In this document: one piece after another, positions 2,813 to 18,070 of the stretch
Numbering within the stretch: the stretch's first letter is position 1
How the letters are laid out: each line of letters opens with the position of its first letter
Source of the DNA: an uncultured SAR86 cluster bacterium
GTDB lineage: Bacteria > Pseudomonadota > Gammaproteobacteria > Magnimaribacterales > D2472
Reading direction: 5' to 3'
NCBI GenBank assembly: GCA_902594005.1
Contig: CACJKN010000012.1
Location: forward strand, 1-37,885
DNA length: 37,885 bases
The notes under the pieces: generated by a model
Databases searched by the model: none
Seen by the model: the letters and a program-made list of their open reading frames with translations, nothing else
Told to the model about the DNA's origin: nothing
Program-made: the position numbers and the translations under genes

Positions 2813-2818
2813 GTAACC

Positions 2819-3140
2819 GAGTTGGTCGGATGATCGCTGGGTATCCAGAGGAAAGTCCGGACTTCATGAGCAAGGCGCCAGGTAACTCCTGGGAGACGTG
2901 AGTCTACGGAAAGTGCAGCAGAAAATATACCGCCTTAGGGTAAGGGTGAAAAGGTGAGGTAAGAGCTCACCGCATGAATGGTAACATTCTATGGCAGTGC
3001 AAACCCCGCTTGAAGCAAGACCAAATAGGAGCTCAACAGGAATGCTCATTCTGAGCTCGGGTAGGTCGCTAGAGTATTGTGGCAACATAATATCAAGATA
3101 GATGATCATCTTGAACAGAATCCGGCTTATAGACCAACTC
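2819..3140 (+). ncRNA. rnpB: RNase P RNA (M1 RNA), bacterial class A
   Basis: This is the catalytic RNA that trims the 5' leaders of tRNA precursors. The ends pair as the P1 helix: GAGTTGGTC at 2819-2827 with GACCAACTC at 3132-3140. The 5' conserved region contains GAGGAAAGTCCGGACTTCA (2850-2868) and the 3' conserved region contains ACAGAATCCGGCTTATAGA (about 3115-3133), the signature ACAGAA/GGCTTA core. At about 322 bases it is shorter than the 377-base E. coli RNA, so some peripheral helices are reduced. The position between rsmI and mraZ is shared with pseudomonads and relatives. No intrinsic terminator follows; transcription may continue into mraZ, with the 3' end made by processing (inference). 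Confidence 0.95.
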
Positions 3141-3153
3141 ATATATTTATAAA

Positions 3154-3192
3154 AAAGTGTTATAAAGTGCGTTAAAAGTATTGTAAAGTGCG
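3154..3192 (+). promoter_or_regulatory. MraZ operator: four AAAGTG-type direct repeats at about 10-bp period
   Basis: Four direct repeats lie just upstream of mraZ: AAAGTGT (3154-3160), AAAGTGC (3164-3170), AAAGTAT (3175-3181) and AAAGTGC (3185-3191). Their G positions fall at 3157, 3167, 3178 and 3188, one helical turn apart. Rings of MraZ are known to bind repeats of this kind in front of their own operon: TGGG-type in E. coli and AAAGTG[T/G] in Mollicutes. The last repeats overlap the candidate -35 region, consistent with autorepression. Binding itself is inferred. Confidence 0.75.
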
Positions 3193-3207
3193 TAAATACT
3201 TTATAAT
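3179..3207 (+). promoter_or_regulatory. Promoter of the dcw (division and cell wall) cluster
   Basis: A perfect -10 box TATAAT lies at 3202-3207. A weak -35 lies either at TATTGT (3179-3184, 17-base spacer) or TTGTAA (3181-3186, 15-base spacer), inside the MraZ repeats. The predicted start near 3214 leaves only about two bases before the mraZ ATG, so this transcript would be nearly leaderless. Confidence 0.55.
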
Positions 3208-3215: not shown

Positions 3216-3683
3216 ATGTTTGGCTTTAATAACATTTCTATTGATAAAAAGAGCAGATTTTCATTCCCTGCTAAATATAGAGATGCCTTTATTAATTCAA
3301 ATGAAAATCAGATAGTTATTACTAAAGATCCTCAATATCCTGCATTAAAGGTTTATTTAGGTAGTGAATGGGATCAAATATCCAAAAAACTCTCTTCTCT
3401 TCAAGGTCTTGATCCGGTAGTTAGAAATCTTCAATGGACAATTCTGGGCAATGCGAGTGTTTGTGACTTTGAGCCTATTGGGAGAATGCAAGTTTTAATT
3501 TCTGCTGATCTTAAAAAATATGCACAAATAGTGGATGCGAACAGAATATGCTTAATCGGAATGGGTAATAAGTTTGAAATTTGGAATCAAGAAAATTGGG
3601 AGCAAAGACAGACTGGAGGAAGTCTTGCAACAGAGATCCTAGATATTGTTCTTCCAGAATCTATAAAAGATATGAGCTTTTAG
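3216..3683 (+). CDS. mraZ: MraZ, transcriptional repressor of the dcw cluster
   Basis: MraZ is an AbrB-fold (double SpoVT-AbrB) DNA-binding protein that assembles into rings and represses its own operon. At 155 aa it has normal length. Two repeat motifs are visible: DKKSRFSFPAKYRD (about residues 10-23; the family has DxKGR, so Gly is Ser here) and EPIGRMQVLISADLKKYA (about 88-105), followed by IGMGNKFEIWNQENW, which is typical of the family. The start MFGFNN aligns with the family start MFRG. No Shine-Dalgarno sequence precedes the ATG, in keeping with a very short leader. A four-repeat operator lies directly upstream. ftsZ follows after 10 bases, whereas most genomes have rsmH here. Confidence 0.93.
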   Translation: MFGFNNISIDKKSRFSFPAKYRDAFINSNENQIVITKDPQYPALKVYLGSEWDQISKKLSSLQGLDPVVRNLQWTILGNASVCDFEPIGRMQVLISADLKKYAQIVDANRICLIGMGNKFEIWNQENWEQRQTGGSLATEILDIVLPESIKDMSF

Positions 3684-3693
3684 GGGAGATGAA

Positions 3694-4815
3694 ATGAATT
3701 GGGAAGTTGTAAATGATATTGATCAAGCAAAAATAAAAGTTATTGGGGTGGGTGGTGCCGGAGGCAATGCTGTGATCCACATGATGAATCACAAAATCCA
3801 AGGTGTAGAATTTATATGCGCTAATACAGATTCACAAGCCTTAGAAAATGCTAAGGGCGCCACTATTTTAAAGCTTGGAGGCGGAATGACTAAAGGGCTT
3901 GGCGCTGGAGCAAATCCTGAAGTTGGAAGACAGGCTGCTGAAAGGGATAGAGAAGCAATTGAACAAATGCTTCATGGTTCAGATATGATCTTCATAACTG
4001 CAGGTATGGGTGGAGGAACCGGAACCGGAGCTGCACCAGTAATAGCATCAATTGCAAAAGAGCTCGGTGCTTTAACAGTTGCTGTTGTTACAAAACCATT
4101 TAAGTTTGAAGGTAAGCCAAGAATGAGTTCAGCTGAAAAGGGCCTTGCTGCTCTTGTAGAAGAAGTTGATAGCTTAATAACAATACCAAATCAGAAATTA
4201 ATAGATGTCCTTGGAGCAAACACACCAATTCCTGAAGCTTTTGCACAAGCAGATGATGTTTTAAAAGGAGCTGTTCAAGGAATTTCAGATATTATTATGA
4301 AACCAGGTCTAATAAACGTTGACTATGCTGATGTAAAAACGGTTATGTCAGAAAAAGGCATTGCAATGATGGGTACTGGAAGATCTAATACAAAAGACCG
4401 TGGAAGAGATGCAGCAGAATTGGCCGTTGGAAGTGAGCTTCTTGAAGATATAAATCTTAAGGATGCAAGAGGTGTTCTAGTAAATATTTCTGCAAAAGAT
4501 CCAACAATGGGAGATTTTACTGAGGTAAGTGAAGTTGTTGAGGAGTTTACTGCTGATGATGCGACATGCATCTATGGACTTGTAATTGATCCATCCCTGA
4601 AAGATCAGCTGATGGTTACGATTGTCGCAACAGGGGTTAACCAGAAATCTCCAAAGCTAGCCATCGATAACAAACAAAGAGCATCCATTAAGCTCTCTCC
4701 CGTTGGATTAGATAAAGATCTTACAAATAAAGAAGTTCAACAAGTTGGCGCATCGTCTGCAGAGGCAATTGATTTCCTCGATGTGCCAACTTTTATGAGA
4801 AAGCAAGTAGATTAA
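3694..4815 (+). CDS. ftsZ: FtsZ, tubulin-like division GTPase, in an unusual position
   Basis: FtsZ polymerises with GTP into the Z-ring at midcell and recruits the divisome. At 373 aa it is close to E. coli (383). Visible features: the nucleotide loop GVGGAGGNAV (18-27), the tubulin signature GGGTGTG (106-112), the T7-loop region NVDYADVKTVM, a short linker, and the intact C-terminal peptide DFLDVPTFMRKQVD (360-373) that binds FtsA and ZipA. A strong GGGGAG ribosome site sits before the ATG, better than most genes here, suiting an abundant protein. In nearly all dcw clusters ftsZ follows ftsA; here it is second, between mraZ and rsmH, and nothing FtsZ-like follows ftsA at 19289. It should therefore be the first strongly translated product under the MraZ-controlled promoter. 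Confidence 0.98.
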   Translation: MNWEVVNDIDQAKIKVIGVGGAGGNAVIHMMNHKIQGVEFICANTDSQALENAKGATILKLGGGMTKGLGAGANPEVGRQAAERDREAIEQMLHGSDMIFITAGMGGGTGTGAAPVIASIAKELGALTVAVVTKPFKFEGKPRMSSAEKGLAALVEEVDSLITIPNQKLIDVLGANTPIPEAFAQADDVLKGAVQGISDIIMKPGLINVDYADVKTVMSEKGIAMMGTGRSNTKDRGRDAAELAVGSELLEDINLKDARGVLVNISAKDPTMGDFTEVSEVVEEFTADDATCIYGLVIDPSLKDQLMVTIVATGVNQKSPKLAIDNKQRASIKLSPVGLDKDLTNKEVQQVGASSAEAIDFLDVPTFMRKQVD

Positions 4816-4818
4816 AAG

Positions 4819-5715
4819 ATGCTTCATTTTCCAGTATTGCTGGAAGAATCAATTGATTTTTTAATTACTAATCCTTCCGGCAAATATATTGATGCAACCT
4901 TTGGTAGAGGTGGACACTCTAGAAAGATATTAGATTCAATAACAAAAGATGGAGCTCTTTTAGCTTTAGATAAAGACATCGATGCGATTAGATTTGCAGA
5001 AGAAAACTTTAAAGACAAAAATTTTTCAATTAAACATACTGGCTTTGAGGACTTAGACTCAATAAATATAGCAAAACAGGCTGATGGTATATTATTTGAT
5101 TTTGGACTTTGTTCTACTCATTATGATGACCCACTAAGAGGCTTTAGTTTTAGTGAGGCTGGACCGCTCGATATGCGAATCGACAAAAGGCAAACTAAAA
5201 AACTTGAAGATTTACTTCAAACTATTGATCCTGAAACATTAGCAAACATTATTTACCAATATGGTGATGAGAAAGAGTCTAGAAAAATCTCGCAAGCCAT
5301 TATTAATTCTTATAAGGATGGCAGGATTTTAAATACTATTGATTTGGCTGAAGTAATAAAAAAATCAAAAACTAGGCTACCTAATAAAATACATCCTGCA
5401 ACACAAACTTTTCAAGCTCTAAGAATTTATTTAAATGATGAGATAAACAATCTAAGAGCAGGATTAAATAAATCAAAGGATTTGCTGAAAACTGGAGGAA
5501 GAATAGTTTGTATTTCTTTTCATTCCCTCGAGGACAGATCAGTTAAGCAATCTTTCGCTCCAAAAAGGATAAGTTATCCAAAAGAAATTCCACTGAATAA
5601 TGAAGTTGTTAAAGAATTTAAAGTAGTTGCTAAAAAAATTAAGCCGAGCGCTTCTGAGCTTCAAAGAAATAAGAGGTCAAGGAGTGCGATTATGAGAGTT
5701 TTTGAAAAGATATAA
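4819..5715 (+). CDS. rsmH: 16S rRNA (cytosine-1402 N4)-methyltransferase
   Basis: RsmH (MraW) is the SAM-dependent enzyme that N4-methylates C1402 of 16S rRNA. At 298 aa it is slightly shorter than E. coli (313). Motifs: the substrate-side start HFPVLLEESIDFL, the SAM loop DATFGRGGHSRKIL (about 26-39), FDFGLCSTHYDDPLRGFSF, and the C-terminal CISFHSLEDRSVKQSF and KPSASELQRNKRSRSAIMRV stretches. It follows ftsZ after 3 bases, and its TAA overlaps the ftsL ATG. Together with rsmI upstream, both enzymes that modify C1402 are encoded within 4 kb. Confidence 0.96.
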   Translation: MLHFPVLLEESIDFLITNPSGKYIDATFGRGGHSRKILDSITKDGALLALDKDIDAIRFAEENFKDKNFSIKHTGFEDLDSINIAKQADGILFDFGLCSTHYDDPLRGFSFSEAGPLDMRIDKRQTKKLEDLLQTIDPETLANIIYQYGDEKESRKISQAIINSYKDGRILNTIDLAEVIKKSKTRLPNKIHPATQTFQALRIYLNDEINNLRAGLNKSKDLLKTGGRIVCISFHSLEDRSVKQSFAPKRISYPKEIPLNNEVVKEFKVVAKKIKPSASELQRNKRSRSAIMRVFEKI

Positions 5716-5975
5716 TGAAAAATTTTTATCTTCCAATTATATTTCTCCAGCTAGTAATAATTACTTACTTATCTTTTATTATCGTTGATGTCAGGTGGGA
5801 AATAAGATCGGGTTTTAAGTCACAAGAAATACTAACTACTCAAAATGAAGAATTGGAAAATCTTTATTATCAGCTCTTAACAGAAGAATTCTTTCTTAAC
5901 TCTCCAGCAAGAATTGAGCAGAAAGCTAGAGAGGATCTTGGAATGGTAAAGGTCAGGCCAAGGAAGATTAAATGA
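5715..5975 (+). CDS. ftsL: FtsL, bitopic division protein
   Basis: FtsL is a small inner-membrane protein that forms the FtsQLB complex, which activates the FtsWI septal synthase. At 86 aa it is shorter than E. coli (121), mainly because it lacks a cytoplasmic N-terminal tail: the membrane helix starts at residue 3 and runs to about 25. A short coiled-coil-like helix follows (about 35-60), ending with ARIEQKAREDLGMVKVRPRK, which matches the family pattern IE..AR..LGM. The assignment also rests on position: it overlaps rsmH (TAATG) upstream and ftsI (ATGA) downstream. Confidence 0.87.
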   Translation: MKNFYLPIIFLQLVIITYLSFIIVDVRWEIRSGFKSQEILTTQNEELENLYYQLLTEEFFLNSPARIEQKAREDLGMVKVRPRKIK

Positions 5976-7585
5976 AGATTTATTATAAAAATTGGAGATT
6001 ATTTTTAATATTTTTATTTCTTTTTTTATCAATTGCAGCAATTGTTTCGAGAATGGTTTATGTTCAAGTTGAGCAGGGTAATTTTCTTCTACAAAAAGGT
6101 AATAATCAAAACACTTCAGAAAGGGTAATCAAATTCAAGCGCGGATCTATTTATGATAAAAATGGGATTCCTCTTGCAATAAGTATTACAGGTTTTGACT
6201 TATTTGCGTTGAGCGGTCTTAGGGAAGATGATTTCTTAAAAATTAAAAAAACTCTTAAACTCAATGATTTAGAATATAAACCCTTCAATAAAAAATCCTT
6301 AATAAAGAACTCATTATCTTTTGAAGAGATGCGTAAAATTAGGTCTCTAAGAATAGATAGGCTGGAGTTAGAGAAAACTTACAAACGTCACTATCCTCTT
6401 GGAGAGCAGGTTGCTCCACTGGTAGGTTTCTCTGGAAGGGATGGGTATGGTTTAGAAGGCCTAGAAAAAAGTTATAACTCAATTTTGACTGGAAAGCCTC
6501 TTAAAGAGAGAGTACTAAGAGATGGTGCGAGAAGCACAATACAGAGGCTTGAAGTGTTGGAGTTTGGCGAAAACTCAAAAGATATCTACCTCACCATTGA
6601 TAGCAATATTCAATATATTGCATATAAGTATCTTGTTGAAGCCATTAAAAATAATGATGGTACTGGTGGGACAGTTATTATTTTAGATAATTCAGCTAAG
6701 GAGGTTCTAGCCCTGGCTAGTTATCCTTCTTATAATCCAAATAATCCAATGAGAAGCATAAAAAAAAATAGAGCTTTTCTTGAAAGCTATGAGCCCGGAT
6801 CAATCGTTAAACCATTAGCTCTTGCCGGAGCTATTGAAAAAAATCTTATTGATATTGACACAGAATTGGAGCTTCCGATAAAGATCGAAGTTGATGGAAA
6901 CATTATTAATGATAGAAAAAAATATGGGCAACTTAAAGCATATGAGATTATTAAGGAATCAAGCCAGGTTGGCGCAACTCAGATCTCATTTCTCTTAGGA
7001 GCAGAGAGGCTAATTGATAATTATAAAAAATTTGGATTTTCAAAACCTGTAAATATTAATTTTCCTTCTACATCATTTGGTGAGATTAATTCTAGAGATG
7101 AAATTTCTGATATTGAAATAGCTACACTCGGATATGGTTATGGATTAACTGCGACACCTTTCCAAATTTCACAGGCATATGCAATCTTTGCAAATAAGGG
7201 TACCTATTATGATTTTAACATCATTAAAAATAATGAATCTCAAATTTTCTCAGAACAAATTATTAGCGAATCAACTGCTAATGATATTTTATTTTCAATG
7301 AGGAAAGTCGTAGAAGATGGAACAGGAGCTCTTGCAAAGTTAGAAAACTTTGATGTAAGCGGTAAAACAGGAACAACAGAAAAACTTAGAGACGGTAACT
7401 ATAAAAGTTCAACATATACAGCTTCTTTCATTGGAATTGGGCCTAATCCATCAAATGAGTTGACCATCTTTGTAAATATTGATGGCTTGGGATCTCAAAA
7501 ATATTCTGGAGGGTCTGTTGCAGCCCCACTTTTTAAAAAGATCTCAAATGATGTTTTTAGCTATATGGGATATTTTAATAAATGA
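5972..7585 (+). CDS. ftsI: FtsI (PBP3), septal peptidoglycan transpeptidase, with SSQ in place of SxN
   Basis: FtsI is the class B penicillin-binding protein that cross-links septal peptidoglycan with FtsW. At 537 aa it has one N-terminal membrane helix (about 10-30), then a dimerisation domain with KRGSIYDKNGIPLA (56-69) and RHYPLGEQ (139-146). The transpeptidase domain has SIVK with nucleophile Ser277 and Lys280, and KTG at 465-467. The third active-site motif, normally SxN, reads Ser330-Ser331-Gln332 in the context KESSQVGATQ. Its spacing from the nucleophile (53 residues) matches E. coli PBP3, so Gln really occupies the Asn position. It overlaps ftsL and murE by 4 bases each. Confidence 0.95.
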   Translation: MKIYYKNWRLFLIFLFLFLSIAAIVSRMVYVQVEQGNFLLQKGNNQNTSERVIKFKRGSIYDKNGIPLAISITGFDLFALSGLREDDFLKIKKTLKLNDLEYKPFNKKSLIKNSLSFEEMRKIRSLRIDRLELEKTYKRHYPLGEQVAPLVGFSGRDGYGLEGLEKSYNSILTGKPLKERVLRDGARSTIQRLEVLEFGENSKDIYLTIDSNIQYIAYKYLVEAIKNNDGTGGTVIILDNSAKEVLALASYPSYNPNNPMRSIKKNRAFLESYEPGSIVKPLALAGAIEKNLIDIDTELELPIKIEVDGNIINDRKKYGQLKAYEIIKESSQVGATQISFLLGAERLIDNYKKFGFSKPVNINFPSTSFGEINSRDEISDIEIATLGYGYGLTATPFQISQAYAIFANKGTYYDFNIIKNNESQIFSEQIISESTANDILFSMRKVVEDGTGALAKLENFDVSGKTGTTEKLRDGNYKSSTYTASFIGIGPNPSNELTIFVNIDGLGSQKYSGGSVAAPLFKKISNDVFSYMGYFNK

Positions 7586-9006
7586 AAGTTTTACGAGATC
7601 TAGGCTTAAATATTAATGAAGACATATTTATATCTGGATTGACAAGCTCATCTGGATTAATAGAAAAAGATCAATGTTTTATAGCTCTTCAAGGTTTAAG
7701 GTCTCACGGACTTGATTATATTGACGAAGCTATTGCTAATGGAGCCAGCTGTGTCTTACATGATAAAGAAAATTATAGTGAGCAACACAAGATACCATGT
7801 TTTTTTATAGAAGATTTATTTAAGAGACAAAAAGAAATTTGTCTTAATTTTTATAATATTCGTGAAAAAAACTTAAAGTTCCTTATTTTTACAGGGACTA
7901 ATGGAAAGACTTCGACCGCATTCTTTTCTTACCAAATGCTATTAAAAACAAACAAAGACGCTTTACTAGCAGGGACCTTAGGACTTGAAAGTAAAACAAG
8001 ATTTAAGGAAACAAGTAATACAACTCCAAATCTTTTTGAACTTTTTGAATTTATATCTGGAGAAAAATATGAAGATGACCTATTTGTTTGTATTGAAGCT
8101 TCTTCTCATGGTTTAGAGCAGAATAGACTTATAGGAATAGATGCTGAAACTAGGGCAATTTTGAATATCGAGCAAGATCATCTAGATTTTCACAAAAATA
8201 TTCAAAATTATATTGACTCAAAGCTGAAGATATTAAATTTCTCTTCTCATAATAAGATTATCTTAAATGGGGACTGTGAAACTTCTGCTTCGCTTATAGG
8301 TAAAGAATTAGCAGAATATGAAAAATGCATAGTGAGTAGTTCCAATAAAAAAGCAGATTACTTTTTTTCGATAGATAAAACTAATAAAAATGGCTGTAAT
8401 TTTAGATTAATCTCGAATGATAGATGTGTTGATTTAAAAGTAAGATTTTTTCAAAAACATAATATTTATAATTTAGTTTTTGCAATAGCATGCCTTGATC
8501 AAATAGAAAAAAATATTTTTTTTGACAAGGAGCTTATTAAGTCAATAGATCTTCCTTCCGGTAGGGCAAAAATAATATCTAAAAATAATAAAAATATTTT
8601 AATTGACTATGCACATAATTTTGGGGGCATCAAAGCTATAGTTAATTCTGTCTCAAATATTTATCATGATTTAATTATTGTTTATGGATGTGGAGGAGAG
8701 CGAGATAGTTCTGAAAGAGGAAAAATCATGAAATTTACATGCGCTAATTCACGAAAAGTCATTTTTACTTCTGACAATTGTAGAAATGAAAGTTTCCAGT
8801 CAATTTTGGATGATTCTAGAAAAGATCAGGAGTATAGTAACTTAATTGTTGAACCAGATAGGAAACAAGCAATAAAGAATGGTATAGATGCCTTAAAAGA
8901 AGATGATATTTTATTGATTCTTGGGAAAGGGCATGAAGAATTTCAAGAAATAAAAGGAACTAAGATACCATTTAACGATCAAAGGGTTGTGGAGGAAATA
9001 TTATGA
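7582..9006 (+). CDS. murE: UDP-MurNAc-tripeptide ligase MurE (meso-diaminopimelate adding)
   Basis: MurE is the cytoplasmic ATP-dependent ligase that adds the third amino acid to UDP-MurNAc-L-Ala-D-Glu. At 474 aa it is slightly shorter than E. coli (495). Mur ligase motifs: P-loop FTGTNGKTSTAFF (about 103-115), SNTTPNLFELF, EASSHGLEQNRL, the DHLDFH segment, and the C-terminal DNCRNE, which corresponds to the DNPR motif of enzymes specific for meso-diaminopimelate. GKGHEEFQEI near the end is also typical. ATGA overlaps link it to ftsI and to an unidentified exported protein downstream, where murF would normally follow directly. Confidence 0.95.
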   Translation: MKVLRDLGLNINEDIFISGLTSSSGLIEKDQCFIALQGLRSHGLDYIDEAIANGASCVLHDKENYSEQHKIPCFFIEDLFKRQKEICLNFYNIREKNLKFLIFTGTNGKTSTAFFSYQMLLKTNKDALLAGTLGLESKTRFKETSNTTPNLFELFEFISGEKYEDDLFVCIEASSHGLEQNRLIGIDAETRAILNIEQDHLDFHKNIQNYIDSKLKILNFSSHNKIILNGDCETSASLIGKELAEYEKCIVSSSNKKADYFFSIDKTNKNGCNFRLISNDRCVDLKVRFFQKHNIYNLVFAIACLDQIEKNIFFDKELIKSIDLPSGRAKIISKNNKNILIDYAHNFGGIKAIVNSVSNIYHDLIIVYGCGGERDSSERGKIMKFTCANSRKVIFTSDNCRNESFQSILDDSRKDQEYSNLIVEPDRKQAIKNGIDALKEDDILLILGKGHEEFQEIKGTKIPFNDQRVVEEIL

Positions 9007-9590
9007 AATATATCACTCTTATAATGTTAATCTTTTCAACATTCTCTTTCTCAGAAAAAAAAGAAATAATCTGTGAGCTTGAAGGGTCATTTTCTGTAAC
9101 CTATAGAGATCTTTCCAAAACAGTAATATCGGAAGGCTTAGACTTTTTTAAAAACTTGGCAACTCAGACGCAACAGTCTATTTTTCTTATCAATAAAGCA
9201 AAAACAAATTTTGACAAAGACGATTGGCAAAAAGAATCTTTGCAGGTTGTTCAGTATTGGGAAATTGATGAAAGCGATAACCTTATTAAACTTAATTATA
9301 CATTTGACCCTTCACCAATTTGGGTAAATCCTAAAGCGAATTGGAGCAAAAAGATAAGTGAAAATGGCATAGAAGTAATATCATCAATGACTTTGGGAGA
9401 AGATCATCCACTTTTTGATAATTATAGTGTCGAATATTATGGAATCTCAAACTCTATCAACTGGTATACGGGCAAAGGGAGAATTTTTGGCGATATCTGG
9501 CTGAAAAGTAAAGATGGTGGCAAAAATAAGAATCCTAAGTTAGAACTCTTAGCAAAAGGAAATTGCACAAAAAAAGAAAGAAAATTTTAA
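9003..9590 (+). CDS. Unrecognised exported protein between murE and murF
   Basis: I do not recognise a family. The 195-aa protein starts with a short signal peptide (Lys at position 2, hydrophobic to about residue 16, likely cleavage after Ser-Phe-Ser), so it is probably periplasmic. There is no lipobox. The mature part is rich in aromatic and polar residues in alternating runs (QVVQYWEIDESDNLIKLNY, WYTGKGRIFGDIWLK), suggesting a beta-rich, lipocalin-like fold, but this is only an impression. Two cysteines (about residues 22 and 188) could form one disulphide joining the ends. It overlaps murE by 4 bases (ATGA) and its TAA overlaps the murF ATG, so it is translationally coupled within the peptidoglycan operon. 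A role in the envelope is inferred from context alone. Confidence 0.85.
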   Translation: MKYITLIMLIFSTFSFSEKKEIICELEGSFSVTYRDLSKTVISEGLDFFKNLATQTQQSIFLINKAKTNFDKDDWQKESLQVVQYWEIDESDNLIKLNYTFDPSPIWVNPKANWSKKISENGIEVISSMTLGEDHPLFDNYSVEYYGISNSINWYTGKGRIFGDIWLKSKDGGKNKNPKLELLAKGNCTKKERKF

Positions 9591-10921
9591 TGAAATTCAT
9601 TTCTAGCACAAACGATATTAGAAAGTATCTTGGTTTAAAGCCAAAAAAAGATATTAAATTTAAAAATATTTCAATTGATACAAGAACTATCAAAAAAGAC
9701 TCACTTTTTATTGCTTTGAAGGGAGAAAATTTCAATGGAAATAAATTTATCGAAAAAGCTTTCTCATCTGGAGCAATTGCAGTTTTATGCTCTGATAAAT
9801 CTTATATTAAAAAAAATAATGTCATCTATGTTCCTAGTGTTAGGAAAGCACTTTCAAAAATATCATCGGAGATTGCGTCTGATTTTAAAGGAAAGAAAAT
9901 ATTAATTACTGGGAGTAATGGAAAAACATCAACAACAAATATCATCTCAAAATCACTCCCTAAGTGTTCGTCTACAATTAAAAATTTTAATAACGAAATT
10001 GGCCTTCCTATTAGCATTATGTCGTCAAAAAAGGATAGTAAATATATGGTTTTTGAAGCTGGTGCAGCAAAAAAAGGAGATATCGAATATTTATCAAAGA
10101 TAGTTAAGCCTGATATAGGAATAATTACAAATATCGGAAACTCGCATCTAGAAAAACTTATAAATATTGAAGGTGTTTTCAAGGTTAAGTCTGAGCTTAT
10201 AAAAAATATCCGTAAAGGAGGAACTTTGATAGTACCAAATGATATGAACTATCTTCAAAGATGGAAAAATATGGCAAAAGGCATCAATGTAATCCCTGTC
10301 CCTAAAAAATTTATTGCGAAGAATGAGAAAATCTCAAAAGATAAAAAAGTAATGACTTTTGATATTATCAAGAGATGTAATGATGATAAAAAATCTAAAG
10401 CTATTTCTATTTCTTCATCACTTCTAGGAAAGCATAATGTTCAAAATATTTTGGTATGTCACACATGTCTTAATGTCTTAGGTGAGAGCAACTCAAAGAT
10501 GCTTAAATCTCTAAAAAATATATCAAGTTCTATTTCAAGACAAAGAATTCTTTCTTGGAGAAATAAATCCACATTGATTGATGATACTTATAATGCAAAC
10601 CCCGAATCAGTCAAGAGAAGTATAGATGTACTATCAGAATTTTCAGGCAGAAAGATTTTTATTTTCGGAGATATGTTTGAGTTAGGAAGATTTAGAAAAA
10701 AACTTCATATTGATATAGGCTCTTATGCAAAAAATTCCAAGATTGATATTCTCATAACTTTTGGAGAGCTTTCAAAATTTGCTTCTAGTGGATTTCAAAA
10801 AAAATCTTATAATTTTTATAATGAAGAACAACTCAAAGCATTTATTGCAGACTTTATTAAAAAGAATGATATTGTTTTAATAAAAGGATCTAGAGGAATG
10901 AAAATGGAGAGATTTATTTAA
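9590..10921 (+). CDS. murF: UDP-MurNAc-pentapeptide synthetase MurF
   Basis: MurF is the ATP-dependent ligase that adds D-Ala-D-Ala to UDP-MurNAc-tripeptide, the last cytoplasmic precursor step. From the ATG at 9590, which overlaps the upstream TAA, it is 443 aa (E. coli 452). A TTG further upstream at 9563 would add nine residues but does not fit the overlap pattern. Motifs: the N-terminal SIDTRTIKKDSLFIALKGENFNG, the P-loop LITGSNGKTSTTN, NNEIGLPISIM, FEAGAAKKGDI, NIGNSHLEKL, and the C-terminal DDTYNANPESVKRSID and FIFGDMFELGRF. Its TAA overlaps the mraY ATG. Confidence 0.95.
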   Translation: MKFISSTNDIRKYLGLKPKKDIKFKNISIDTRTIKKDSLFIALKGENFNGNKFIEKAFSSGAIAVLCSDKSYIKKNNVIYVPSVRKALSKISSEIASDFKGKKILITGSNGKTSTTNIISKSLPKCSSTIKNFNNEIGLPISIMSSKKDSKYMVFEAGAAKKGDIEYLSKIVKPDIGIITNIGNSHLEKLINIEGVFKVKSELIKNIRKGGTLIVPNDMNYLQRWKNMAKGINVIPVPKKFIAKNEKISKDKKVMTFDIIKRCNDDKKSKAISISSSLLGKHNVQNILVCHTCLNVLGESNSKMLKSLKNISSSISRQRILSWRNKSTLIDDTYNANPESVKRSIDVLSEFSGRKIFIFGDMFELGRFRKKLHIDIGSYAKNSKIDILITFGELSKFASSGFQKKSYNFYNEEQLKAFIADFIKKNDIVLIKGSRGMKMERFI

Positions 10922-12006
10922 TGTTTGAATACTTAGGCACCATTCTTGTAGATATTGATCCTGGCTTCGATGTTCTCAGATATCTTACTGTGAGAACAAT
11001 TGGAGGAACAATAACAGCGTTATTGCTGACAATATTTTTGGGCCCTAAGCTAATAAGCTGGCTTCAAAGGATGCAATTTAAACAATATGGAGTCGAGAGA
11101 GGTCCAGATTCCCACAAACAAAAGTCTGGTACCCCAACCATGGGAGGATTACTAATAATCTCCTCATTGCTAATATCTACTTTATTGTGGGCAGATTTAG
11201 GCAATAGATATATTTGGGTTTGCCTTTTTATTACATCGGGTTTCACCATCATAGGTTTTCTTGATGATTTCTATAAAATTAAATATAAGGACTCAAAAGG
11301 AATATCCGGAAGGCTTAAACTATTGTCTCAAACTATAGTCTCAATTATTGCAGTAAGCTTTTTATACTTCTCTGCCAAAGATTCAGCAGAAATATCATTA
11401 ATACTCCTTTTTAACAAAGATTGGATCTTTGAAATGAGCATGCTTTCATTTATTCTGTTTGGCTCATTTGTAATTGTTGGCTCATCAAATGCAGTAAATC
11501 TTACAGATGGCCTTGATGGGTTAGCAATATTGCCAACTATTTTAATTGGTGGAGGCTTAGGATTAATAGCATATGCAATGGGTAACCAGTTAATTGCAGA
11601 ATATTTATTTATACCTCATCTTCAAATTGCAGGTGAGCTAATTGTATTTTGCGGAGCGCTTATAGGGTCCGGAATTGGCTTCTTATGGTACAACTCATAT
11701 CCTGCAGAAGTTTTTATGGGAGATGTTGGCTCTCTTACTCTTGGTGCAATTCTTGGAGTCCTTGCTGTAATTCTGAGACATGAAATAGTTTATGCAATTA
11801 TGGCAGGAGTTTTCATAGCTGAAACTCTAAGCGTCATGATTCAAGTCACTTCTTACAGATTTAGGCAAAAAAGAGTTTTTTTAATGGCACCAATTCACCA
11901 TCACTTTGAGCTAAAAGGGTGGCCAGAGCCAAAAATTATTGTTAGATTCTGGATTATCACCCTTGTTCTAATTTTAGTTGCCCTTGCAACACTCAAATTA
12001 AGGTAA
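10921..12006 (+). CDS. mraY: Phospho-MurNAc-pentapeptide translocase MraY
   Basis: MraY is the integral membrane enzyme that transfers phospho-MurNAc-pentapeptide to undecaprenyl phosphate, making lipid I. At 361 aa it matches the family length (E. coli 360), with about ten membrane helices. The active-site aspartates are in place: IIGFLDDFYKI with Asp115-Asp116, and NLTDGLDGLAILP (about 192-204). HKQKSGTPTMGGLL (about 65-78), FMGDVGSLTLG and the cytoplasmic histidine loop APIHHHFELKGWPEPK are also intact. It overlaps murF by one base; murD starts 3 bases after its stop. Confidence 0.98.
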   Translation: MFEYLGTILVDIDPGFDVLRYLTVRTIGGTITALLLTIFLGPKLISWLQRMQFKQYGVERGPDSHKQKSGTPTMGGLLIISSLLISTLLWADLGNRYIWVCLFITSGFTIIGFLDDFYKIKYKDSKGISGRLKLLSQTIVSIIAVSFLYFSAKDSAEISLILLFNKDWIFEMSMLSFILFGSFVIVGSSNAVNLTDGLDGLAILPTILIGGGLGLIAYAMGNQLIAEYLFIPHLQIAGELIVFCGALIGSGIGFLWYNSYPAEVFMGDVGSLTLGAILGVLAVILRHEIVYAIMAGVFIAETLSVMIQVTSYRFRQKRVFLMAPIHHHFELKGWPEPKIIVRFWIITLVLILVALATLKLR

Positions 12007-12009
12007 TCC

Positions 12010-13044
12010 ATGCCGTCTTTGATATATGGCTTCGGTGTTACTGGAAAGTCATTCCAAAGATATCTTGACATCAAAGGCGAAGAGTTTGAAATATATGACA
12101 CTTTGCACAGTGATTCATTAAAAATTGCTTCAAAGATTGAGGATGGTTTTTATAAAAATATCTATGTAAGTCCTTCAGTGCCTAAAGAGAAGTTTAAAAA
12201 CTTAAAGAAATATTCAACAGTTTTTACTGATATGGATATTTTTTTCAATGAAGATGACTCTATAAAAATAGGAATAACCGGTACAAATAAAAAAAGCACC
12301 ACCTGCTATCATTTAATGCAACTATTAGAAGAAAAATACTCTACAAACTTAGTTGGAAATATTGGTAAGCCAGTCCTAGATGTTTTGAATAATGGAAAAA
12401 AATATTCAATTATTGAACTTTCTAGTTTCCAATTAGATAAGGTTTCAGATATTGATCTTGATTATGGGATACTTCTCAATATAGAAAGTGATCATCTTGA
12501 TTATCACGAAAATATTGAAGACTATGTTCAATCAAAAAAAAGAATATTGGAGGCTAAAAAGAGTATTCAGAGTGATGATATAAAGACTATATATAAATTT
12601 ATTACTGGATCTATGCCTCCGAAGAAAGAACTAAAAGATCTCCCGTTTAGGTTTCAAAAAATAAATCAAAATACAATCAATGACTCTAAATCTACTAACT
12701 CTCATTCCTTAAAATTTGCAATATGTGAAGCAAGTAAGATATTTAACGATTTTGCTTTGATCCTAATAGGTAATCCTGAAAAAGAAGGATATAAAGAAGT
12801 TGAGATTTCAAATCCATCATTAGTAGTTATATGCGGTAAACATGCAAATGAAATCTTCTCATGTGTAAAACATGAGAATAAAGTTTTATGTGAAAATCTA
12901 AATTTAGCAGTCAAAGAGATTGAAAAAGCTAATATTAAAAATATTCTCTTTTCCCCAGGGTATCCCAGTGGCGATGACTATATTAATTTTGAAGAAAGGG
13001 GGAAGGCATTCAATAAACTAATAGAGGAAAATAGTGGAACTTAA
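12010..13044 (+). CDS. murD: UDP-MurNAc-L-Ala:D-Glu ligase MurD, shortened and with an altered P-loop
   Basis: MurD adds D-glutamate to UDP-MurNAc-L-Ala. This copy is 344 aa against about 438 in E. coli. Retained: a small N-terminal nucleotide-sugar domain, ELSSFQL (136-142), DHLDYH (161-166), the carbamylated-Lys position (Lys176 in QSKKR), NDSKSTN (224-230), and the C-terminal FSPGYPSGDDYINFEERG. Two things are odd. The ATP loop reads Gly-Thr-Asn-Lys-Lys-Ser-Thr (91-97) where the family has GTNGKST. About 80-90 residues of the central domain between residues 188 and 211 are missing, including the LxGxHNxxNALAA segment whose His and Asn contact ATP. The frame is intact and overlaps ftsW by 11 bases. 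Whether it is a full MurD is uncertain. Confidence 0.85.
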   Translation: MPSLIYGFGVTGKSFQRYLDIKGEEFEIYDTLHSDSLKIASKIEDGFYKNIYVSPSVPKEKFKNLKKYSTVFTDMDIFFNEDDSIKIGITGTNKKSTTCYHLMQLLEEKYSTNLVGNIGKPVLDVLNNGKKYSIIELSSFQLDKVSDIDLDYGILLNIESDHLDYHENIEDYVQSKKRILEAKKSIQSDDIKTIYKFITGSMPPKKELKDLPFRFQKINQNTINDSKSTNSHSLKFAICEASKIFNDFALILIGNPEKEGYKEVEISNPSLVVICGKHANEIFSCVKHENKVLCENLNLAVKEIEKANIKNILFSPGYPSGDDYINFEERGKAFNKLIEENSGT

Positions 13045-14140
13045 AAGCAATAATTTTCAAATTCTTTTTACTTTTGTCCTCTTACTAATCTTTGGAGAGA
13101 TTATGGTCCTCTCCTCGAGTATGGTCAGGGCTGAATCAATTTATGATAATCCTTTTTTCTTTGCATCAAGACAAGCCATTTTTATTTCGATTGGCTTTAT
13201 TATTTTTTGTTTTTTTCTTCTTATTCCATCAGATTTTTTAAGAAAATTTGACTGGTTATTATTAATACTATCTCTTATCTTGCTAGTCGCATTATTTTTT
13301 CCGGGAGTTGGTACTGAGGTCAACGGAAGCATGAGATGGATAAGGTTTGGACCAATCAATATCCAGCCATCTGAAGTTGCCAAGTTCTGTATGCTTATTT
13401 ATATTTCTGGATATTGCGTAAGGAGGCTTGAAGAAATATCATCAACATCTGGTTTTTTAAGACCTCTTTTCGTTTTAACCCTTTTTGCTTCTCTAATATT
13501 AATTCAACCAGATTATGGATCTACGGCCATACTTTGCTTAATCGTAATGGTTTTACTTTTCTTTGCTGGCATTTCTTTTTACCAATTTTTAATTTTAATA
13601 ACGCTCTTTTTAATACTAGGAGCAATTGCAATATTTTTAGAACCATACAGACTGATAAGATTATTAAGTTTTATTGATCCTTTTGAGGATATTCAAGATA
13701 GTGGTTGGCAGCTAGCTCAATCCTTAATAAGTTTAGGTCAGGGAGGATGGTTTGGATTGGGATTAGGAAATAGCATTCAAAAGAATCTTTTTTTACCCGA
13801 GGCACATACAGATTTTATCTTTGCAATATTAGTTGAGGAACTAGGAATAATAGGAGGTGTATGCCTAATTTTGATTTATGTATTCTTATTAAGTAGCATT
13901 TTTAAAGTTTCTTTTGAATCATTTAATAAAATTAGACCATTCCAGGGTTACCTTTGTTTTGGAATAGGATTTTTAATATCACTTCAAGTAATCTTAAATA
14001 TAGGAGTTAACATTGGACTGCTTCCTACAAAGGGACTAACTCTTCCGTTCATTAGTTACGGAGGTACTAGTTTACTTGTAATGATGAGCCTAATAGCTAT
14101 AGTTGTAAGAATTAATAACGAAAATAAGTTCTATAAATGA
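13034..14140 (+). CDS. ftsW: FtsW, SEDS-family septal peptidoglycan glycosyltransferase
   Basis: FtsW polymerises lipid II into septal glycan strands in complex with FtsI. At 368 aa it is shorter than E. coli (414), mostly at the cytoplasmic ends. About ten membrane helices are visible. Family segments: VNGSMRWIRFGPINIQPSEVAKF, GLGLGNSIQKNLFLPEAHTDFIFAILVEELG, which carries the catalytic extracellular Asp (HTD), and the C-terminal GLLPTKGLTLPFISYGGTSLL. The start is GTG, preceded by AGAGGAAA and inside the last 11 bases of murD. Its end overlaps murG (ATGA). Confidence 0.95.
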   Translation: MELKSNNFQILFTFVLLLIFGEIMVLSSSMVRAESIYDNPFFFASRQAIFISIGFIIFCFFLLIPSDFLRKFDWLLLILSLILLVALFFPGVGTEVNGSMRWIRFGPINIQPSEVAKFCMLIYISGYCVRRLEEISSTSGFLRPLFVLTLFASLILIQPDYGSTAILCLIVMVLLFFAGISFYQFLILITLFLILGAIAIFLEPYRLIRLLSFIDPFEDIQDSGWQLAQSLISLGQGGWFGLGLGNSIQKNLFLPEAHTDFIFAILVEELGIIGGVCLILIYVFLLSSIFKVSFESFNKIRPFQGYLCFGIGFLISLQVILNIGVNIGLLPTKGLTLPFISYGGTSLLVMMSLIAIVVRINNENKFYK

Positions 14141-15180
14141 AAAATATAATCATTTGCGCTGCTAAAACAGGCGGACATATTTTTCCAGCACTTGGTTTTG
14201 CTAAGGAGGCTCTTAAAAATGATTATAAAATTACTTTCTTAGGCACCAATACTGATCTTGAAAAAAAGATTTTTCAGCAAAATGAGAATATAGATTTTAT
14301 AAAATTTGAATTGGATGGCTTCAGGGGAAAAAGCATCACTCAAAAATTAATCTTTTTAATTAAGTTACCTCTGATTTTTTTTCAAGTCATATCAATTATT
14401 ATTTCAAGAAAAATATCTTCAGTGGTTTGTTTTGGTGGATTTATAACAGTCCCAGTAGGTTTTGCCAGTATCATTAGCTTAAGGAAACTATATTTGCATG
14501 AGCAGAACTCAGTTGTAGGATCTTCAAATAGACTTCTTTCATTATTTGCAGAAAAGATGTTCACCGCATTTCCAATTAGGAAAAACAAAAAATACTTTTT
14601 TATTGGAAATCCATCATATATACAAAATAAAAAAGCTATAGATATTGATCAAAATGATAATTTAAATATTTTAGTTACAGGCGGGAGCCAAGGAGCGGAT
14701 TTTATTAATAAAAATATTCCCACTACTCTAAATACTTTAAATACAAAATTAAATGTAATCCATCAATGCGGTTTGGGGAAGATTCAAAATGTTTCAAAAT
14801 ACAATCAAGAAGTTAATGCATCAATCTTAGAATTTATAGATAATTTAGATGAATATATTGAGTGGTGTGACTTTGCTATTTGCAGATGTGGGGCAGGCAC
14901 TCTTAGTGAGATTTCTCAAAAAAAGAGAGGGATGATCATGATTCCTCTTCCTGAATCAATTGATAATCATCAATACTTTAATGCAGTATTTTATGAGGAA
15001 AATAATCAAGGTAAGATTTTTCAAGAAAAAGACTCACTAGATAGTCTCTCTTATCTTCTTAGAAAAACAATTCATGAAAAAATTTATCAGAATTGGAAAA
15101 AGAAAGAGCCGCCTATTGATCACTCAAGAGCAGCTTCTTTAATGTTGGGTGAAATTCATAAAGATAATGCAGCAATTTAA
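14137..15180 (+). CDS. murG: MurG, lipid II-forming GlcNAc transferase
   Basis: MurG is the peripheral inner-membrane GT28 enzyme that transfers GlcNAc from UDP-GlcNAc to lipid I. At 347 aa it is near E. coli (355). The acceptor loop near the N-terminus reads AAKTGGHIFPAL, where the family has GGTGGHVFP, so the first two glycines are Ala and Lys while the TGGH part is kept. Other motifs: HEQNSVVGSSNRLLS (E. coli HEQNGIAG...), TGGSQGADFIN and CRCGAGTLSEIS, followed by IPLPESIDNHQYFNA, the donor-binding region. It overlaps ftsW by 4 bases and murC by 14. Confidence 0.94.
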   Translation: MKNIIICAAKTGGHIFPALGFAKEALKNDYKITFLGTNTDLEKKIFQQNENIDFIKFELDGFRGKSITQKLIFLIKLPLIFFQVISIIISRKISSVVCFGGFITVPVGFASIISLRKLYLHEQNSVVGSSNRLLSLFAEKMFTAFPIRKNKKYFFIGNPSYIQNKKAIDIDQNDNLNILVTGGSQGADFINKNIPTTLNTLNTKLNVIHQCGLGKIQNVSKYNQEVNASILEFIDNLDEYIEWCDFAICRCGAGTLSEISQKKRGMIMIPLPESIDNHQYFNAVFYEENNQGKIFQEKDSLDSLSYLLRKTIHEKIYQNWKKKEPPIDHSRAASLMLGEIHKDNAAI

Positions 15181-16561
15181 GAAAATAAGAAATATTCATT
15201 TTATAGGTATTGGTGGGTCTGGAATGATAGGAATTGCAACAATTCTTCACAAGAAAGGATATAACATTTCGGGTTCAGATATCTCCAAAACAAAAGATCT
15301 GGATGAGTTAGCAAAGTCAGGCGTTGACGTAACTTACTCGCACAAAAGCAAGAACATAAACAATAAAGACTTAATTGTTTTATCCTCCGCAATTGATTCT
15401 TCAAATGTAGAGGTATCTTCTGCAAAAAAGAAAAATATACCAATTATTCCTAGGGCTGAAATGCTTAGTGGTATTTCCAGAGGATACCAAGGAATAGCAG
15501 TTGCTGGCAGCCATGGAAAAACAACCACAACAAGCTTAATTGCTCATATCTTTAATCAAGCTTTATTAAGTCCAACTTATGTAATTGGGGGAAAAATACT
15601 TAGTTCAGATGGTAACTCACGTCTTGGTGATGGGAATTTTTTCATATTTGAGGCAGATGAAAGTGATAAGTCTTTTTTAAGTTTTTATCCTGATTCCGCT
15701 GTTATAACAAATATAGATGATGATCATCTCGAGGCTTATGAGGGCAATATTAACAACTTGAAAAAATCTTTTTTAGATTTTTCAGATAATATTCCTTTTT
15801 TTGGATATGTCATTGCTAATTATGATGATAAAAATACCAGGGATATATTAAAAAAAATAAAAAGACGGGTAATCACATTTGGATTAAATAAAAAAAGTGA
15901 CATTACAGTTAGTGAAATCAATTACTTCTTTGATTATGTTGATTTTAAAATTTATATTAAAGACACAAATAAAAAACATAAATTCAGGTTATCACTCCAG
16001 GGGAAATACAATATTTATAATGCTGTTGCTGCTATAGCAGTTGCTATAGAGGAGGGAATTAGTATTCAGACAATCAGGGCTGCATTGAAATCTTTTTCTG
16101 GCGTTGAAAGGAGACTAGAGAGATTTAAGCTAATAATTAAAAATAAGCAAGTTACTCATATTGATGATTATGGACATCATCCTAAAGAAATAGAGCAAGT
16201 AATAGTTTCTTTAAGAAGGCACTTTAAGAAAAAGAAAGTTCTCATGATTTTTCAACCTCATAGATTTTCAAGAACAAAAATGCTTTTTAAGGATTTTATT
16301 TCAACATTAAGCAAAGTTGATAAGGTATTTTTATTACCAATTTATTCTGCAAGTGAAAAAGAAATTAAAGGAGTCTCTTCAAAAAATATGGCACAAAAAT
16401 TAAATACAATAAATGGAAAAGACTTTTGCAGTCTCGTAAAACATGAAAATGTAAATGATATGGTTGAGCAATGTATAGATAAATATGATGTTGTAATAAC
16501 TCAAGGAGCAGGAAATGTTTCTATGGTTTCAAAGGGTTTAATCAAGAAATGGAAGATATGA
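15167..16561 (+). CDS. murC: UDP-MurNAc:L-alanine ligase MurC
   Basis: MurC is the first ligase of stem-peptide synthesis, adding L-Ala to UDP-MurNAc. From the ATG at 15167 it is 464 aa (E. coli 491). A GTG at 15149 would add six residues; the ATG is preferred because it lies eight residues before the conserved NIHFIGIGGSGM nucleotide-sugar loop. Other motifs: the P-loop VAGSHGKTTTTSL, FEADESDKSFL, NIDDDHLEAY, GKYNIYNAVAAIAVA (the HN-type segment, here YN), DDYGHHPKEI and IFQPHRFSRTKML. All catalytic regions look intact, in contrast to murD. It overlaps murG and ddlB. Confidence 0.94.
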   Translation: MQQFKKIRNIHFIGIGGSGMIGIATILHKKGYNISGSDISKTKDLDELAKSGVDVTYSHKSKNINNKDLIVLSSAIDSSNVEVSSAKKKNIPIIPRAEMLSGISRGYQGIAVAGSHGKTTTTSLIAHIFNQALLSPTYVIGGKILSSDGNSRLGDGNFFIFEADESDKSFLSFYPDSAVITNIDDDHLEAYEGNINNLKKSFLDFSDNIPFFGYVIANYDDKNTRDILKKIKRRVITFGLNKKSDITVSEINYFFDYVDFKIYIKDTNKKHKFRLSLQGKYNIYNAVAAIAVAIEEGISIQTIRAALKSFSGVERRLERFKLIIKNKQVTHIDDYGHHPKEIEQVIVSLRRHFKKKKVLMIFQPHRFSRTKMLFKDFISTLSKVDKVFLLPIYSASEKEIKGVSSKNMAQKLNTINGKDFCSLVKHENVNDMVEQCIDKYDVVITQGAGNVSMVSKGLIKKWKI

Positions 16562-17457
16562 AAGAAGTCTGTGTACTCTATGGAGGTAATTCCTCCGAAA
16601 GAGAGGTTTCACTTAAAAGCGGTAAATTTATTCATAAATCTCTAGTAAAGAATGGATATAAATCTTACTTAATCGATTATGCAGATCTGACTGAACTGGA
16701 AAAGCTAAAAGATTTTAATCTTGTTTTTATTGCATTGCATGGCGAAGAGGGCGAAAGTGGTATTCTTCAATCCAAAATGGATAAAGCAGGAATAGACTAT
16801 ACCGGCTCTGGATTTGAAGCTTGCAAGAATAGTTGGGACAAAGAAATTTGTAAAAATATATTAAGACAGAACAATCTTCCTACTCCCGATTTTTCTGTGT
16901 ATAAGACATTTCAAGAAATAATTGAGTCTAAAAATAAAATAGAAGAGCAGTTTCAAGAAGGTGTATTTATAAAACCCTGCAAAGAAGGCTCTAGTATAGA
17001 TATTATTAAGGTAACAGATTTCTCAAAATCTGATCTAGAGAAGATAAAAGTAGATTTAGTTGACAGAGAAAGAAAATTTTTAGTCGAAAGATTTATTGAG
17101 GGTAGGGAGTTTACCGTCGGTTTTTTAAATGACCATATTCTTGAACCCTTAGAAATAATTACTAAAAGAGAATTCTATGATTATGAAGCTAAATATGATG
17201 ATGATGAAACTCAGATTATTAAAGCTGATTTGGATGAAAATGACTTGGATACTTTAAAAGAAATAGCTAAAAGTTGTTTCAATGTATTTGGGCTTTCAAG
17301 ATGGGGCAGAGTGGATATTCTGCAAGATCAAAAAGGAAATTTTTTTGTATTAGAACTTAATACTGTTCCAGGTATGACTGATCATAGTCTTTTTCCTTAT
17401 GCTGCAAGCTTAAAGGGATTTAGTTTTGATGAGCTAGTGAATGAAATTACAAAGTAA
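16558..17457 (+). CDS. ddlB: D-alanine--D-alanine ligase
   Basis: Ddl is the ATP-grasp enzyme that makes the D-Ala-D-Ala dipeptide used by MurF; its substrate comes from Alr, also in this window. From the ATG at 16558, which overlaps the murC stop (ATGA), it is 299 aa and aligns end to end with E. coli DdlB. An ATG three codons upstream (16549) is also possible. Motifs: LYGGNSSEREVSLKSG, ALHGEEGESGILQ, IKPCKEGSSIDI, FLVERFIEGREFTVGFL, FYDYEAKYDDDETQ (the Tyr of the omega loop typical of D-Ala rather than D-lactate ligases), and the metal site LELNTVPGMTDHSLFP. Confidence 0.95.
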   Translation: MKEVCVLYGGNSSEREVSLKSGKFIHKSLVKNGYKSYLIDYADLTELEKLKDFNLVFIALHGEEGESGILQSKMDKAGIDYTGSGFEACKNSWDKEICKNILRQNNLPTPDFSVYKTFQEIIESKNKIEEQFQEGVFIKPCKEGSSIDIIKVTDFSKSDLEKIKVDLVDRERKFLVERFIEGREFTVGFLNDHILEPLEIITKREFYDYEAKYDDDETQIIKADLDENDLDTLKEIAKSCFNVFGLSRWGRVDILQDQKGNFFVLELNTVPGMTDHSLFPYAASLKGFSFDELVNEITK

Positions 17458-18070
17458 GAAAAGAACTTTGTTAGCAAGTTTTTTAATCCTATTCTTAATT
17501 CCTTCGCACTCTGCCGAATTTGAAATTAATTTTATTGAAACCTTTGATGAAAATTACATGCTTGAGGTTATACAAGAATTAAAATATGAAAAAAATATTA
17601 AAAGAATTAAAACTTTCTTAGATCAAAAGCACTGGATTGAAAGATATGAAATCAAAAGAAACTTTTCCAAACCCTCATCTATAAACATCTATTCAAGAAA
17701 ACCTATTTTTGTTTGGAACAATGATAGTTTTGTAGACAAAGATTTAGTTATTTTCCCCAAAAATGAGAATTCCTTGTCTAACAAAATTCTTATGATTAAT
17801 TGTCCAGAGCCATTACTTTATGAGGTTTTTGACTGGATAAAGTATCCGATTGACTTAGCTGAAAACAAACTAATTTCTATAAACTACAACTCAGTCGAGG
17901 GATGGATATTCAAATTTGAAGATTTTGAAGCAAAATTGGGTAAAAGTTTAGACAGCTACAAGTTTGAAAATCTTTTAAAAACTATAGAATACTTATACGC
18001 AAAAAGAAAAAATGTAAGTATAGTAGACTTAAGAAGTAATGCAGGAATTTCTCTGAAATATGACAAATAA
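17441..18070 (+). CDS. ftsQ: FtsQ, bitopic divisome protein, short form
   Basis: FtsQ is the scaffold of the FtsQLB subcomplex: a short cytoplasmic tail, one membrane helix (about 9-24) and a periplasmic POTRA plus beta domain. At 209 aa it is clearly shorter than E. coli (276). The assignment rests on position between ddlB and ftsA and on family-like segments: WIERYEIKRNFSKPSSINIYSRKPIFVW (cf. W...V.R.WP..L.I.I.E..P.A.W), followed by FVDKDLVIFP, and the C-terminal VDLRSNAGISLKY (cf. VDLRY..GFAV). The helix ends in Ser-His-Ser-Ala, so signal peptidase cleavage cannot be ruled out by eye. It overlaps ddlB by 17 bases and ftsA by 11. Confidence 0.85.
   Translation: MKLQSKKRTLLASFLILFLIPSHSAEFEINFIETFDENYMLEVIQELKYEKNIKRIKTFLDQKHWIERYEIKRNFSKPSSINIYSRKPIFVWNNDSFVDKDLVIFPKNENSLSNKILMINCPEPLLYEVFDWIKYPIDLAENKLISINYNSVEGWIFKFEDFEAKLGKSLDSYKFENLLKTIEYLYAKRKNVSIVDLRSNAGISLKYDK

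Follow-up and report, generated by a model that had tools for sequence, protein, structure and literature searches.

The canonical dcw cluster holds division and cell-wall genes contiguously on a single strand, beginning with mraZ and ending ftsQ-ftsA-ftsZ. MraZ of E. coli and of M. genitalium is described as a repressor, and the available text of the same report gives its site in Mollicutes as direct repeats of AAAGTG[T/G] (PMC8475190). In N. elongata an activating effect is described: deletion of mraZ lowers the five genes just past it and overexpression raises the first seven genes (PMC9395523). The sign of MraZ control varies among species in the published work, as far as the accessible parts of these reports go. 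In E. coli, long operons express their distal genes with a delay, and in the mraZ-ftsZ operon the expression of such genes falls once replication has passed; internal promoters have been suggested as a buffer against this delay and drop (PMC10081379, a preprint). The ftsZ gene of Burkholderia cenocepacia, at the far end of its cluster, relies on the mra promoter alone, and according to the available portion of that study fragments 5' of ftsQ, ftsA and ftsZ lack promoter activity (PMC7761207).

The DNA analysed here (termed the window) is a stretch of 37,885 bp that forms contig 12 of a 79% complete metagenome-assembled genome (988,607 bp in 30 contigs) of the marine SAR86 group. The closest named relatives, whose FtsZ is 97-99% identical, mostly bear the title uncultured SAR86 cluster bacterium. 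From the ORF list and Pfam/Rfam matches the 5' end of the cluster and its surroundings read rsmI, rnpB, mraZ, ftsZ, rsmH, ftsL, ftsI and the 3' end reads ddl, ftsQ, ftsA, rpsF, rplI, dnaB (Table 1). As in the canonical cluster, the division and cell-wall genes are contiguous on one strand with mraZ first; the cluster end, however, is not ftsQ-ftsA-ftsZ, rpsF following ftsA and ftsZ standing at 3694. The lpxC gene of this genome lies on a separate contig, and no Pfam match was obtained for the window ftsQ. Two side features of the operon may be recorded. An extra ORF without a Pfam match (orf195, 195 aa) separates murE from murF and is present in 6 of 80 named loci, every one a close relative, and the S6 protein encoded by rpsF extends past its S6 domain by some 75 residues rich in lysine and glutamate.

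Table 1. Features of the window (coordinates in nucleotides of the 37,885 bp stretch)
Feature	Position	Strand	Basis
rnpB (RNase P RNA), adjoining the operon on its 5' side	2818..3145	+	Rfam RF00010, 308.5 bits
Candidate operator for MraZ with repeats of GTG type at 3157, 3167, 3178 (degenerate, GTA) and 3188	3155..3192	+	Sequence
Putative -10 box TATAAT	3202..3207	+	Read in sequence; outside consensus-scan matches
mraZ	3216..3683	+	Pfam PF02381, 48.6 bits, two stretches
ftsZ Shine-Dalgarno GGGGAG	3683..3688	+	Anti-SD pairing -10.4 kcal/mol
ftsZ, second operon position	3694..4815	+	373 aa ORF and Pfam
FtsZ C-terminal peptide LDVPTFMRKQVD (putative FtsA/ZipA binding)	4777..4812	+	Translation
rsmH (mraW), 3 nt past ftsZ stop	4819..5715	+	PF01795, 303 bits
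ftsL	5715..5975	+	PF04999
ftsI-murE-orf195-murF-mraY-murD-ftsW-murG-murC-ddl, canonical relative order	5972..17457	+	ORFs, translations, similarity labels in relatives
orf195	9003..9590		ORF
ftsQ	17441..18070	+	Place before ftsA and weak similarity to reference FtsQ
ftsA	18060..19289	+	PF14450 and PF02491
Canonical ftsZ place, 3' of ftsA	19290..19367	+	Merely 78 nt, then rpsF (19368)
rpsF	19368..19868		ORF

The preliminary description of this DNA had placed an intact FtsZ, with GTP signature and C-terminal peptide, right after mraZ, had found none behind ftsA and had counted the ftsZ ribosome site among the best of the operon, and all three statements hold. The translation contains the signature GGGTGTGAAP, residues 13-173 match the Tubulin/FtsZ GTPase domain (PF00091, E 3e-48) and residues 222-315 match FtsZ_C (PF12327, E 6.1e-24); the C-terminal peptide, which resembles that of E. 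coli FtsZ, is identical in all 20 rows of SAR86 family f1 displayed in the alignment. By the ORF list and Pfam, the spot behind ftsA is occupied by rpsF. Judged from its sequence, the gene is an ordinary FtsZ at an unusual and deeply conserved position. Its ribosome site shows the strongest anti-SD pairing of the 18 predicted starts from mraZ to rplI (the next reaches -9.3 kcal/mol), and no ribosome site precedes the window mraZ (+0.8 kcal/mol). Median pairing in f1 was -7.8 kcal/mol for ftsZ (84 loci), -2.7 for rsmH (81), -1.1 for ftsI (73), -3.6 for murE (65), -0.9 for mraZ (83) and -7.0 for mraY (just 5 loci), the script-picked ORF starts being partly wrong, which affects single values in these as in the gap and repeat statistics below.

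Upstream of mraZ the window carries repeats of GTG type in tandem, spaced by roughly 10 nt, as expected 5' of the first gene of an MraZ-regulated operon, albeit in an imperfect copy: the exact 10-nt register holds for the repeats at 3157 and 3167 only, and one step measures 11 nt. Elsewhere in SAR86 the tandem GTG repeats 5' of mraZ proceed in 10-nt steps and often read AAAGTGTG. They exceeded mononucleotide shuffles in 82 of 83 f1 regions (two more regions had no recognisable rnpB end), where the exact-register run comprised two repeats in 50, three in one and four in 32 regions, and they exceeded dinucleotide shuffles in 5/5 regions of family f2 and 6/6 of family f3. The same was found for 11 of 12 canonical outgroup regions (p<=0.05, mononucleotide shuffles) and for two further gammaproteobacterial genomes discussed below (G108 and G094). 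The mononucleotide test found no repeats in any of six regions of family f4, where ftsZ nevertheless stands in front. A consensus promoter scan for sigma-70 elements with 16-18 nt spacing returned no match 5' of mraZ in the window. The view that ftsZ follows an MraZ-controlled promoter is partly supported, MraZ-type repeats lying 5' of mraZ. Eight nucleotides separate the TATAAT from the mraZ start codon, in front of which no ribosome site is seen, so the mraZ mRNA may be almost leaderless.

The arrangement proved to be ancestral to the family when related genomes were searched for the mraZ-ftsZ-rsmH adjacency, as the preliminary description had proposed. In the 80 named contigs, the majority but not all of which are titled SAR86, mraZ lies immediately 5' of ftsZ without exception and rsmH immediately 3' of it in 79, including the complete chromosome CP097973.1. 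Among whole genomes of the order an FtsZ match was found in 59 of 61, the misses being one genome each of f1 (G024) and f2 (G058). Within f1 the match is present in 36 of 37 genomes, and the mraZ and ftsZ coordinates, compared by eye, adjoin in 36/36; in G024 the contig stops within ftsI. Spacing is tight as well: the mraZ-ftsZ gap measures 8-18 nt in 81 of 83 f1 loci and the ftsZ-rsmH gap -1 to 4 nt in all 80, in a set that includes a few duplicate genomes. The latter distance makes translational coupling likely.

Three other SAR86 families show how the locus has varied. In f4, ftsZ precedes rsmH in 6/6 loci and lies directly 3' of rnpB (3'-end motif in 6/6), at a distance of about 20 nt where the RNA was delimited by Rfam (rnpB end to ftsZ start, 7981 to 8001 in L123 and 7972 to 7992 in L124). 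With the window MraZ as query, mraZ was not detected in any of eight f4 genomes, although a strongly diverged copy could escape such a search. In seven f4 genomes (L176, L180, L256-L260) ftsA is followed by rpsF, and in the loci examined from all four families the cluster end adjoins rpsF and rplI. Families f2 (5/5 loci examined) and f3 (6/6) share with f1 a forward ftsZ, membership of the same order and the MraZ-type repeats 5' of mraZ, but differ in that ftsA and ftsZ have shifted together (in f2 with ftsQ) to between rsmH/ftsL and ftsI, giving mraZ-rsmH-...-ftsA-ftsZ-ftsI-murE. Two small ORFs occupy the places of ftsL and ftsQ between rsmH and ftsA in the f2 loci and in five f3 loci, the only similarity match being that of the second small ORF of f2 to FtsQ (L113, L129); in the f3 locus L117 just about 200 nt separate rsmH from ftsA.

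Some peculiarities of the f4 proteins deserve mention. None of six FtsZ C-termini (L123-L128) fits the D-[IV]-P-x-F of f1, f2 and f3, in an alignment that is ambiguous here, and FtsA, itself intact, has a helix-like stretch at its end; an altered FtsZ-FtsA contact is possible. A disruption of ftsA, signalled by one TAA in two f4 genomes, was discarded, both FtsA frames being intact. The f4 genome G042 (1.07 Mb, one contig) has an extremely diverged FtsZ (L124, branch length 4.1 in a quick tree) and gave no LpxC match.

A backbone tree of six proteins and 33 rows joins f1 with f4 and f2 with f3 as sister pairs (support 100 each) and separates 11 outgroup rows (support 99). The FtsZ quick tree (74 rows), a check proposed earlier, shows vertical inheritance: it places the SAR86 sequences of all four families in one clade (support 96) against 36 gammaproteobacterial outgroup rows and leaves the families themselves unresolved. 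Given these pairs and this clade, the simplest history is one move per pair ancestor, namely a single forward move of ftsZ alone in the ancestor of f1 and f4 and a single move of a block carrying ftsA-ftsZ in the ancestor of f2 and f3.

In order to gauge how unusual these orders are, ftsZ and rsmH were compared across 114 genomes of the class, of which 106 gave an FtsZ match, 106 an RsmH match and 102 both, with both on one contig in 74. Canonical here means spacing on one contig, the gene-by-gene check covering some of the loci; by this measure ftsZ lies 12-21 kb downstream of rsmH in 67 of the 74 linked genomes. The seven exceptions are the window genome, a second SAR86 genome (G039), G146, G108, G094, and finally G096 and G159, in which ftsZ is more than 150 kb away from rsmH with ftsA-ftsZ kept. 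Where the two genes fall on different contigs (28 genomes), ftsA adjoins ftsZ in 23 by ORF call and in two more by coordinates (G115, G165); G172 has lpxC alone beside ftsZ, and G127 and G101 have neither, the latter at a contig end. In the 12 kb read around the G127 gene (L261), ftsZ is on its own, and within the class sample this was the sole clear case of an ftsZ that is detached and lies elsewhere than at the front of dcw. Of four genomes with FtsZ and no RsmH match, G097 and G144 read ftsA-ftsZ-lpxC and G093 reads ftsZ-lpxC. A phylum-wide census covered 132 of 160 genomes; both genes share a contig and a strand in 100 of them, are split between contigs in 31 and lie on opposite strands in one. 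Among the matches listed, 98 of the 100 linked same-strand pairs were canonical by spacing and none was forward, in a sample that leans on few families and with the best FtsZ match only where a genome has two.

G146, G108 and G094 fall outside SAR86 in the backbone tree and represent three further gammaproteobacterial lineages, with ftsZ at three additional slots within the first five genes. Like SAR86 they carry a forward ftsZ in operon orientation; unlike f1, the slot is before mraZ in family f90 (G146, rsmI-rnpB-ftsZ-mraZ-rsmH), between rsmH and ftsL in f52 (G108, mraZ-rsmH-ftsZ-ftsL) and between ftsI and murE in f38 (G094, ftsI-ftsZ-murE). The f90 order ftsZ-mraZ-rsmH recurs in 6/6 genomes of G146's order, all of a single genus, and the f52 order rsmH-ftsZ-ftsL in 25/25 loci retrieved out of 26 genomes searched; f38 is represented by one genome. 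In G146 (L162) four GTGG-type repeats lie 5' of ftsZ and none 5' of mraZ, the picture that an insertion of ftsZ next to the operator, on its mraZ side, would leave. Repeats 5' of ftsZ are clear in two of five f90 genomes, reduced to two repeats in another two and absent from one. An f90 genome also encodes a second, distant FtsZ-like protein of 33% identity (L228, G326:C28). The forward move in SAR86 is one among several such relocations and not unique. Each relocated order, that of SAR86 included, consists of two runs in canonical order, as would be expected if a block had moved, or if the cluster had been duplicated in tandem and its surplus copies lost. A small-genome link (Fisher p = 0.0007, 4 lineages; 9 of the 67 canonical genomes measure <=2.0 Mb) is weak because genome size reaches 3.1 Mb in f52 and 2.9 Mb in f90, and streamlining was dropped as a firm correlate.

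The occurrence of forward moves in several groups is a sign that it matters where in the operon ftsZ stands. We consider it probable that the sole detected ftsZ of the window genome moved from the distal end of the dcw cluster to just behind the operon promoter, where it would work via the mra promoter, and the recurrence is best read as repeated selection for a promoter-proximal ftsZ under that promoter. On this account ftsZ would have relocated once, in the common ancestor of f1 and f4, its f1 slot being that of gene two after mraZ, either by tandem cluster duplication with loss of extra copies or by excision and reinsertion. The mra promoter, overlapped by the MraZ-type GTG repeats, would transcribe both mraZ and ftsZ in its initial 1.6 kb. 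FtsZ would thus be made early and, given its strong ribosome site, abundantly, directly within the MraZ feedback loop, with ftsQ and ftsA, about 14-15 kb downstream, synthesized later and at a lower level. The front position would substitute for internal ftsZ promoters and spare ftsZ the delay and premature termination typical of distal genes in long operons; if the E. coli delay and drop apply, a promoter-proximal ftsZ would escape both. Co-transcription, MraZ binding and its sign, effects on dosage and timing, selection as the cause and the route taken are inferred. The preliminary description went further in proposing that FtsZ would be uncoupled from FtsA dosage and become the main direct target of MraZ; both may be so, but rsmH and later genes sit downstream of the same promoter too, and the B. 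cenocepacia ftsZ relies on the mra promoter alone from the far end of its cluster. MraZ control cannot be the sole reason for the position, for f4 has neither repeats nor a detected mraZ and its ftsZ is still forward. More tentatively, and with the odds somewhat against it, lineages that lost internal ftsZ promoters or came to depend on mra alone may repeatedly have pulled ftsZ frontward, by duplicating the cluster and then losing copies; the Z-ring protein would in this way be made first and escape replication-linked premature termination, and f4 would then have lost mraZ and the operator, leaving ftsZ about 20 nt past rnpB and maybe tied to the rnpB promoter.

The strongest competitor of promoter-proximal selection, although an unlikely one, is that a chance duplication-loss or transposition was fixed by drift in a streamlined ancestor, leaving a functional operon and bringing no regulatory gain. 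The few events overall, the canonical spacing kept in other small genomes (the 9 of 67) and the retention of the position in f4 without a detected mraZ all agree with neutrality. Against it, ftsZ lies before murE and in operon orientation in SAR86, f38, f52 and f90 alike, which seems non-random, a detached ftsZ elsewhere amounts to the one clear case of G127, and a strong ribosome site and tight spacing are conserved throughout f1. It is a good deal less probable that co-translational or assembly needs rather than transcription hold ftsZ in place, FtsZ being made beside RsmH, FtsL and FtsI by genomic channelling: the ftsZ-rsmH junction with its probable coupling in 80/80 f1 loci and the nearness of ftsZ to rsmH, ftsL or ftsI in the relocated lineages would suit this view, but FtsA, a direct partner of FtsZ, is encoded at a distance of about 13 kb in both the window and f4.

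A horizontally acquired ftsZ that displaced the native copy would account for a new position with the old one lost; we regard it as very improbable and rejected it on the FtsZ quick tree, since the SAR86 proteins form one clade (96) against the 36 outgroup rows and share descent while position differs. Least credible of all, to the point of being negligible, is an artefact of assembly or binning, or another ftsZ absent from the bin; misassembly and a second copy were what the preliminary description had named as fatal to its claim. The genome is only 79% complete, and the 80th named contig, from a single cell, appears chimeric just past ftsZ, but the recurrence of this order in 79 of the 80 named contigs, a complete genome among them, the FtsZ match in 33/33 genomes at least 90% complete (one apiece among the matches listed) and the single match each for FtsZ_C and Tubulin in a profile search of the window's own genome, 79% complete, refute both readings, which were dropped. 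In that 80th contig (L111, CABYCI010000022.1) mraZ is followed by a truncated ftsZ fused to inverted copies of upstream genes (cytochrome b-like, Rieske-like and S9/L13-like ORFs) and the contig runs 4.6 kb beyond ftsZ; the junction is most likely an amplification chimera.

A permuted ftsZ that recurs among lineages and has become fixed throughout one marine family amounts to a natural experiment on whether FtsA and FtsZ must be co-encoded, on the purpose of MraZ, and on whether the cell-cycle timing of a gene is set by where it stands in a long operon. The value of the finding lies in its recurrence and in the tests it makes possible. The relocation is relevant, too, where ftsZ transcripts serve to gauge the growth of SAR86 in the sea (PMC13349992). 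In the accessible portions of open-licence papers we found no report of a forward-ftsZ arrangement, and a prior mention elsewhere is possible, for instance in the 2022 survey in which Megrian and colleagues treat dcw evolution.

As far as the open-access literature goes, the SAR86 arrangement is a previously unreported variant of the known dcw cluster. With the canonical E. coli-type cluster it shares the strand, the relative order of the other genes, mraZ in first place, the MraZ-type repeats and a gene set complete except for murB and lpxC; it differs in that ftsZ is second and not last, lpxC is elsewhere and rpsF-rplI-dnaB follow ftsA. The Mycoplasma cluster mraZ-mraW-MG_223-ftsZ, as described in the available text of its report, resembles SAR86 in that ftsZ stands close behind an MraZ-controlled promoter and in its AAAGTG-type operator repeats (PMC8475190). 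That cluster, however, is short through gene loss with ftsZ still last, whereas SAR86 keeps the other genes and it is ftsZ itself that has moved.
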